Assembly (NCBI GenBank): GCA_003663525.1
Contig: QMUF01000046.1
Coordinates: forward strand, 1 to 10,578
Origin: Thermococci archaeon
GTDB lineage: Archaea > Methanobacteriota_B > Thermococci > Thermococcales > Thermococcaceae
Reading direction: 5' to 3'
DNA length: 10,578 bases
Part shown: piece by piece, positions 167 to 1,515 of the stretch
Layout: each line of letters begins with the position of its first letter
Numbering within the stretch: position 1 is the first letter of the stretch
Position numbers and translations under genes: made by a program
Notes under the pieces: generated by a model
What the model was told of the DNA's origin: nothing
The model's input: the letters and a program-made list of their open reading frames with translations, nothing else
Database searches by the model: none

Positions 167-418
167 TCACCACCATATTTCGTTATTTTTTGTCCCTATC
201 ACTATTCTCACCACTAACAGAAAGAGCAGGAATAGGATATTCAAGAATACTAACTTGACAGGGAGTTCTATCAAATACACTGAGGTTTATATCAAAGAGA
301 GGATTTCGTCCATAAACAAATATCCTATATATGACGTTGACACAATGAGCCCTCCTGCCATAAGAGCAAGACTAACAGTATCCATCGCGCTCACTATTAG
401 GGGGGGTACTACATTCAT
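167..418 (-). pseudogene. Small membrane-protein gene with an in-frame stop
   Basis: On the minus strand an ATG at 418 opens 43 codons (MNVVPPLIVSAMDTVSLALM...) ending at TAA 289-287. The same frame then continues for 39 codons to TGA 169-167, and that tail is strongly hydrophobic (LVFLNILFLLFLLVVRIVIG) with a short polar end. The uninterrupted hydrophobic segment after the stop suggests one gene of about 83 codons with two membrane segments and one nonsense mutation. The ATG overlaps the TGA of the upstream fragment (ATGA), so the pair looks translationally coupled. I do not recognise the family. Two separate very small proteins are an alternative. Confidence 0.4.
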
Positions 419-539
419 TTTTCCAAAGCCCAAGATGCAATTTCCGGTTTATTCATTTGAATAGTTAGCTCTACAGGAGTAGCAACTATCATTCCCAAAA
501 TCATGACGAATATTGAAAAGAAAACTGATTTTACAACAT
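415..539 (-). pseudogene. Small membrane or secreted protein fragment, frameshifted at its start
   Basis: A minus-strand frame of 40 codons, from 537 to the TGA at 417-415, reads VVKSVFFSIFVMILGMIVAT followed by a polar part ending in ASWALEK. It looks like a signal peptide or membrane anchor plus a short outside segment. It has no start at its own beginning. An ATG at 539-537 preceded by a purine-rich stretch (GGGGAAGTTGAG) is one base out of frame and stops after two codons, so a single-base indel next to the start is the simplest reading. An internal ATG at 504 would give only 29 residues. The stop overlaps the ATG of the next membrane-protein fragment. Family unknown. Confidence 0.33.
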
Positions 540-612
540 CTCAACTTCCCCTATAAATGCATAAGTAAATAATTGGCACATTAAAGTGGAGGGAATCTTT
601 CAAAGGCACTGA

Positions 613-1179: not shown

Positions 1180-1515
1180 ATGGACAAAGTGTCCAAAGTG
1201 GCCACTAAAAATAGCGGCTCTCATTCAAGAGTTTTGAGCAAAAAGAGGCGAAAGACACACATTCATATTAGCATTGATGAAGAGATGTCCGCAGTTATAG
1301 ACGAGCTCGCGCTTAATAAGTCAAAATTCACTAATAGAGTACTTAGAGCACTTCTTCTTGGAGAAGGAGGCGATAGCATGTTCATAAAATTCTGGTGGTC
1401 CCGCGGCCCGGATTTGAACCGGGGACCTGCGGATCTACAGTCCGCCGCCACTCCCAGGCTAGGCTACCGCGGGACCCTACAGCCCAGCCCTCAATCACTA
1501 CTCATCTTGATGTAG
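1180..1515 (+). pseudogene. int(N): 5' fragment of an SSV-type integrase split at tRNA-Tyr
   Basis: The frame from ATG 1180 encodes 111 residues. Residues 1-25 are basic (SKKRRKT). Residues 26-59 look like a ribbon-helix-helix: a strand THIHISI, then DEEMSAVIDELAL and NKSKFTNRVLRALL. Next comes a glycine-rich turn (GEGGDS), and from residue 73 the frame is simply tRNA-Tyr read on the wrong strand (WSRGPDLNRGPADLQSAATP). Thermococcales integrases of the SSV type begin with a short DNA-binding region and carry their attachment core at this point, so this is most likely the N-terminal piece of a tyrosine recombinase left after integration. None of the catalytic R..H-R..Y residues is present; they would be in int(C). 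True element coding probably ends between 1396 and 1437. A stand-alone RHH regulator gene that merely overlaps the tRNA is the main alternative. Confidence 0.6.
1396..1473 (-). tRNA. tRNA-Tyr (GTA anticodon)
   Basis: The minus strand folds into a complete 78-nt tRNA with encoded CCA. The acceptor stem CCCGCGG pairs with CCGCGGG, followed by discriminator A and CCA at 1398-1396. The anticodon stem GCGGA/UCCGC encloses the loop CUGUAGA with anticodon GUA. The T arm contains GGUUCAAAUCC. The C1-G72 pair is the archaeal/eukaryal tyrosine identity element. No intron is visible. The 3' half is also the presumed integration site of the element to its left, since int(N) reads straight into it. A TTTATAAA element at about 1516-1523 lies upstream on the minus strand and would give a leader of some 20 nt. 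Confidence 0.95.

Follow-up and report, generated by a model that had tools for sequence, protein, structure and literature searches.

The window, that is, the whole stretch of DNA analysed here, is the entire contig C46 (10,578 b) of the draft genome G000, an assembly of 1.62 Mb in 220 contigs with 82.8% completeness, and its start coincides with a contig end. Membership of the genome in the Thermococcales is probable, since the matches that carry names belong to Thermococcus and Pyrococcus. An open frame starting with the ATG at 1180 is oriented head-on to a tRNA-Tyr gene, passes through it and terminates in the flank upstream of the tRNA (Table 1). Residue 73 of this frame begins at base 1396 and residue 98 finishes at base 1473; the statement of the original prediction that residues 73–98 are the tRNA read antisense, with the frame entering tRNA-Tyr head-on, proved to be exact according to the ARAGORN tRNA call and the translation. 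Over an alignment of 111 residues, the frame is 63–73% identical to the Int(N) fragments located at the tRNA-Tyr genes of three relatives (G012, G019 and G037). Its N-terminus is common to pT26-2-type integrases, and it enters in frame the 3′ end of the tRNA gene that forms the att site.

Table 1 Features at the left end of the window
Feature	Positions	Strand	Basis
Probable membrane-protein gene relic with a broken frame	170–540	minus	Similarity to a G003 protein
Probable relic of the regulator gene preceding int in G019 and G004 (final 18 codons and stop)	1070–1126	plus	Similarity
Probable int promoter region	1137–1176	plus	Resemblance to the DNA preceding Int(N) at other tRNA genes; function putative
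Open frame, 111 codons including the stop, through the tRNA gene into the tRNA upstream flank	1180–1515	plus	Translation
Int(N), integrase-specific N-terminal 72 codons	1180–1395	plus	Similarity to Int(N) of relatives
att bases, a 53-bp exact match to the att direct repeat that bounds the G019 element	1388–1440	.	Sequence comparison
tRNA-Tyr (GTA), target gene	1396–1473	minus	ARAGORN; Rfam tRNA, 59 bits at 1399–1473

A TATA box and an RBS had been ascribed to the fragment, and a TATA-like run (1137–1146) and GGTG (1169–1172) are indeed present before the ATG. A conserved int promoter region upstream of the ATG is plausible from sequence comparison, because similar DNA precedes Int(N) at other tRNA genes: bases 1098–1177 are 78% identical (E 6.5e-9) to the DNA before the tRNA-Arg Int(N) of G004, and bases 1139–1176 are 84% identical (E 0.004) to that before the tRNA-Gly Int(N) of G003. 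Further upstream, bases 1070–1126 encode DNSSKLWLFKIGKLKDLW followed by a stop, and this peptide shows 50 and 56% identity (modest E values of 0.003–0.006) to the end of the regulator gene in G019 and in G004, respectively, the latter preceding the tRNA-Arg Int(N). The intact regulator genes of both genomes match PHROG 32591, transcriptional regulator. The placement of the relic is supported by the DNA similarity to G004 starting at 1098, and the spacing between the relic and the ATG is 53 bases in the window against 50 in G004. A terminal piece of 18 codons from the regulator gene preceding int thus seems to survive upstream of Int(N); the window yielded no further part of this gene.

The second probable relic is seen in bases 418–540 (minus strand), whose translation resembles a G003 membrane protein over 41 aa (49%, E 1.1e-7); in another frame, at 176–400, the match goes on weakly (38%, E 0.99, one stop). 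In G003, the gene for this protein comes after two broken PF16795 pieces flanking an IS240-type transposase gene (L166:12265-14398), and it is solely because of this neighbourhood that the relic is ascribed to the integrated element; no counterpart was found in the examined stretches of G019 or G037. The strong degradation originally noticed to the left of the fragment agrees with these two probable gene relics and with the longest frame listed within 1–1060, which is of 69 aa. The window covers one contig end, and neither of the two relics recognised there could be assigned to the conserved core genes of the pT26-2 family. We infer that the DNA directly upstream of Int(N) is a relic of the element. 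Additionally, bases 943–1001 are 80–91% similar to three places in G004, located near the starts of open frames or between them, and perhaps represent a shared promoter-like repeat.

Relatives of the fragment and complete elements

A query of 98 residues was compared with 101 genomes (G000 and 100 relatives), 61 of which gave a match and 40 none, with many of the matches spanning little beyond tRNA-Tyr itself. The tRNA-Tyr sites of 59 of the 61 genomes were compared, the omitted ones being G004, where the match lies at another tRNA, and G061, which is outside the family. The antisense tRNA frame reads WSRGPDLNR(G/R)PADLQ at every one of these sites (59/59), and residues 73–98 were rejected as evidence on this ground. 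The informative residues 1–72 are complete at four sites, namely those of the window, G012, G019 and G037. Short stubs were recognised by eye and from the survey matches at the tRNA-Tyr genes of G017, G022, G031 and G059, and, G015 set aside, neither an Int(N) nor a stub was recognised at the remaining 50. The tRNA-Tyr of G015 (G015:C14) carries a short element of about 8.5 kb with its own PF16795 Int(C), where a quite different N-terminus precedes the att site and the two copies of a 51-bp att pair lie 8.5 kb apart.

The arrangement of a complete element was provided by G019, in which a 55-bp direct repeat forms att copies at 1969080 and 1998568, about 29.5 kb apart. The Int(C) frame with PF16795 starts in the left copy, and an Int(N) 65% identical to that of the window ends in the right one. 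On the outer side of the left copy, the frame runs on into sequence resembling the flank of the empty site of G042, which locates the edge of the element. Compared with plasmid integrases, the G019 Int(C) has 43.6% identity to that of pT26-2 and 44.3% to that of pGE2; a second protein encoded by the element shows 59% identity to one from pAMT11, and the element also encodes a subtilase, as pAMT11 is annotated to do. In G037, Int(N) and Int(C) lie on separate contigs and have 57 bp in common. A second att copy leading into Int(C), the very check proposed in the original prediction, was therefore found in two relatives with the same N-terminus at tRNA-Tyr.

Outside tRNA-Tyr, about 30 survey matches cover most of residues 1–60. 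Eleven of these places were scanned for tRNAs, and ten of them overlap or abut a tRNA gene on the opposite strand (two each of Val, Thr, Gly and Glu, one His and one Arg). The eleventh, an Int(N)-like piece in G016 (C1:1112700-1112888; 57% over residues 1–63), is found in a 3.2-kb locus with no tRNA gene. The N-terminal pattern also opens the intact integrases encoded by pT26-2 (352 aa) and pGE2 (373 aa), in each case ahead of a tRNA-derived stretch of its own, and the N-terminus is thus not confined to stand-alone ribbon-helix-helix regulators. Wider searches added little: the Int(N) alignment found a single locus in genome_contigs (JALTMZ010000097.1, a Thermococcus MAG contig) and no relative in viral_contigs (255 pattern matches, none confirmed), and tblastn of residues 1–98 gave no match against plasmids and, against phages, only a tRNA-Cys gene, present in two records of Aeromonas phage Aeh1.

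The ribbon-helix-helix-like character suggested for the N-terminus is weakly supported. An NCBIfam MazE-type antitoxin model was matched by the window (0.0024) and by three relatives (8e-6, 8e-6 and 0.0018), all far below the curated cut-off, and Pfam CcdA by two of the four Int(N) scanned (0.04–0.1), the window not being among them. At the same time, no ribbon-helix-helix match was obtained among solved structures; a fold model of low confidence (mean pLDDT 49.5) places helices at 34–44 and 49–60. The word “ribbon” is absent from the main texts of two articles, PMC6972569 and PMC8371274.

Search for the catalytic half in the draft genome and in a single-contig relative

PF16795, the Int(C) domain, has no match in the 82.8%-complete G000 assembly. 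The only PF00589 match there is a 284-aa frame, which we take to be a XerA-type resolvase. In 12 genomes searched with the att pattern (up to three mismatches), it occurs twice in G019 and G037, which also possess Int(C), and once in the other ten, including G000 and G012. Because the G000 draft has a single att copy and no PF16795, the window frame was classified as a fragment rather than as an integrase or an intact element.

G012, a genome of the same genus assembled as one contig with 99% completeness, carries at tRNA-Tyr an Int(N) 73% identical to that of the window. Its sole PF16795 match lies near 683 kb, close to another Int(N)-like match, and with one att copy in the genome the tRNA-Tyr Int(N) is therefore an orphan. 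Eight other genomes of the genus with both flanks in the examined stretch have the gene order Tfx-type gene, tRNA-Tyr, marC, hisS; in G012 (L042:13280-16130), tRNA-Tyr together with Int(N) lies in inverted orientation, with marC on one side and the Tfx-type gene on the other. Upstream of the G012 Int(N) lie genes for a DUF4411 (PIN-like) protein and an HTH-M78 protein. The Tfx-type gene of G000 sits near the end of another contig, C193, and is preceded by resolvase and TnpB-type (Cas12f1-like TNB) pieces (L160:1-377, on C193), presumably an IS607-like arrangement.

Origin and fate of the fragment

With good confidence, we regard the frame at 1180–1515 as the Int(N) of a suicidal integrase of the pT26-2 type, likely a remnant of a plasmid that was once integrated at tRNA-Tyr and has since been lost or eroded together with its Int(C). 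In this family, the integrase gene holds an att site that copies the target tRNA gene in its 3′ part, and recombination with the chromosomal tRNA restores the tRNA and splits the integrase gene in two. Int(N) then remains fused head-on to a complete tRNA, whereas a partial tRNA copy followed by Int(C) comes to lie at the opposite end of the element. In the window, the remainder of the plasmid, including the catalytic Int(C), would have been lost or eroded afterwards. The idea that the integrase gene is cut by integration at the tRNA is supported by the arrangement in G019 and G037 and by the intact plasmid integrases. Because the catalytic domain lies in Int(C), the stump would have no recombination activity of its own.

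According to PMC6972569, the pT26-2 family and type I integrases in Thermococcales have been described, with att sites that lie over tRNA 3′ ends and are 58 nt long on average, and TbaCH5_IP2 sits at tRNA-Tyr (Table 3 therein). In PMC8371274, suicidal integrases are defined and 14 target tRNA genes are given for the pT26-2 family. The window resembles this family, including TbaCH5_IP2, in using the tRNA 3′ end as att, in the entry of Int(N) into the tRNA, in the N-terminal pattern and in the tRNA-Tyr target, and its relatives possess the PF16795 Int(C) as well; unlike the family, the window keeps only Int(N) and traces, with no Int(C) or second att copy found. The integrases of SSV1/SSV2 and pTN3 are likewise encoded by genes cut by integration at a tRNA gene (PMC8371274), but they belong to different integrase families, pTN3 Int being 27.5% identical to the G019 Int(C) over 71% of the latter. 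Since the pT26-2 family, even at tRNA-Tyr, was already known, the suggestion of an old element type worth naming has to be abandoned: the stump in the window is an ordinary relic of a known kind, with no new type to name.

The most serious competitor, though an unlikely one, is that the element is still integrated, with an assembly gap between C46 and C193 that would hold Int(C), a second att copy and the majority of the genes. Int(C) could be unassembled because the draft, with its 220 contigs, reaches 82.8% completeness and one of the contig ends is the start of the window; moreover, the Tfx-type gene, the normal flank of tRNA-Tyr, lies near a contig end. However, the assembled sequence contains neither a PF16795 match nor a second att copy, the neighbouring regulator gene is truncated, no listed frame within 1–1060 exceeds 69 aa, and the Tfx-type gene is preceded by the resolvase and TnpB-type pieces and not by Int(C). 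Because the draft lacks Int(C) and the second att copy, and the single-contig G012 also has an orphan with the same Int(N) at the same tRNA, we infer that the element integrated at tRNA-Tyr and then decayed, rather than having its other half in an assembly gap. The likeness of the G012 orphan extends to the absence of Int(C) and of a second att copy, and the two loci differ in the inversion and in the genes upstream of Int(N).

It is quite improbable that, after loss of the element, selection has kept the orphan Int(N) as a small DNA-binding protein. The frame is open and free of indels in the window, G012 and G037, and it is open in the near-identical variants P0002 and P0003; the dN/dS ratio of window versus G012 is 0.58 (dS 0.37, dN 0.21), and in a rough neutral simulation that assumed one indel per ten substitutions, the value for a frame still open and without indels after 28 changes was 0.03. 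But the ratio is about the same (0.55; dS 0.44, dN 0.24), and not different, for G019 versus G037, both of which still have Int(C). Many of the changes probably predate integration, the nucleotide identity being 79% between window and G012 and 80% between G012 and G019, and an open frame free of indels would cause mild surprise only on two conditions, that the changes came after integration and that indels are as common as assumed. The 26–27 private changes of the window copy against 14 in G012 fit relaxed constraint, and at four other tRNA-Tyr sites no more than short stubs are left. On these grounds, domestication was rejected as a strong claim. More remote still is a stand-alone regulator gene abutting tRNA-Tyr by chance, which can practically be dismissed: the weak antitoxin-type matches speak for it, but the same N-terminus abuts several kinds of tRNA and opens intact plasmid integrases, and the frame passes through the att site.

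A single insertion inherited by the window and G012 was also considered and is unproven. The dS of 0.37 between their Int(N) is within the chromosomal range of 0.11–0.60 (five genes; a sixth was saturated), but separate arrivals are as likely as inheritance because the G012 Int(N) is equally close to that of G019.

Under the preferred reading, a plasmid integrated and later lost or eroded, the stump adds a late stage of decay to a known process. A suicidal integrase can hardly excise its own element, and an orphan Int(N) with neither Int(C) nor a second att copy would therefore point to deletion rather than to clean excision, which is expected to restore the empty site. There is a very slim chance that orphan stumps at tRNA-Tyr are not debris but expressed, selected DNA-binding proteins or donors for chimeric integrases; if so, the host would retain half an integrase once the plasmid is gone. 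Among the 59 tRNA-Tyr genes compared, all from one archaeal family, sites that are empty can be lined up with others that hold a full element, an orphan Int(N) or a short stub.
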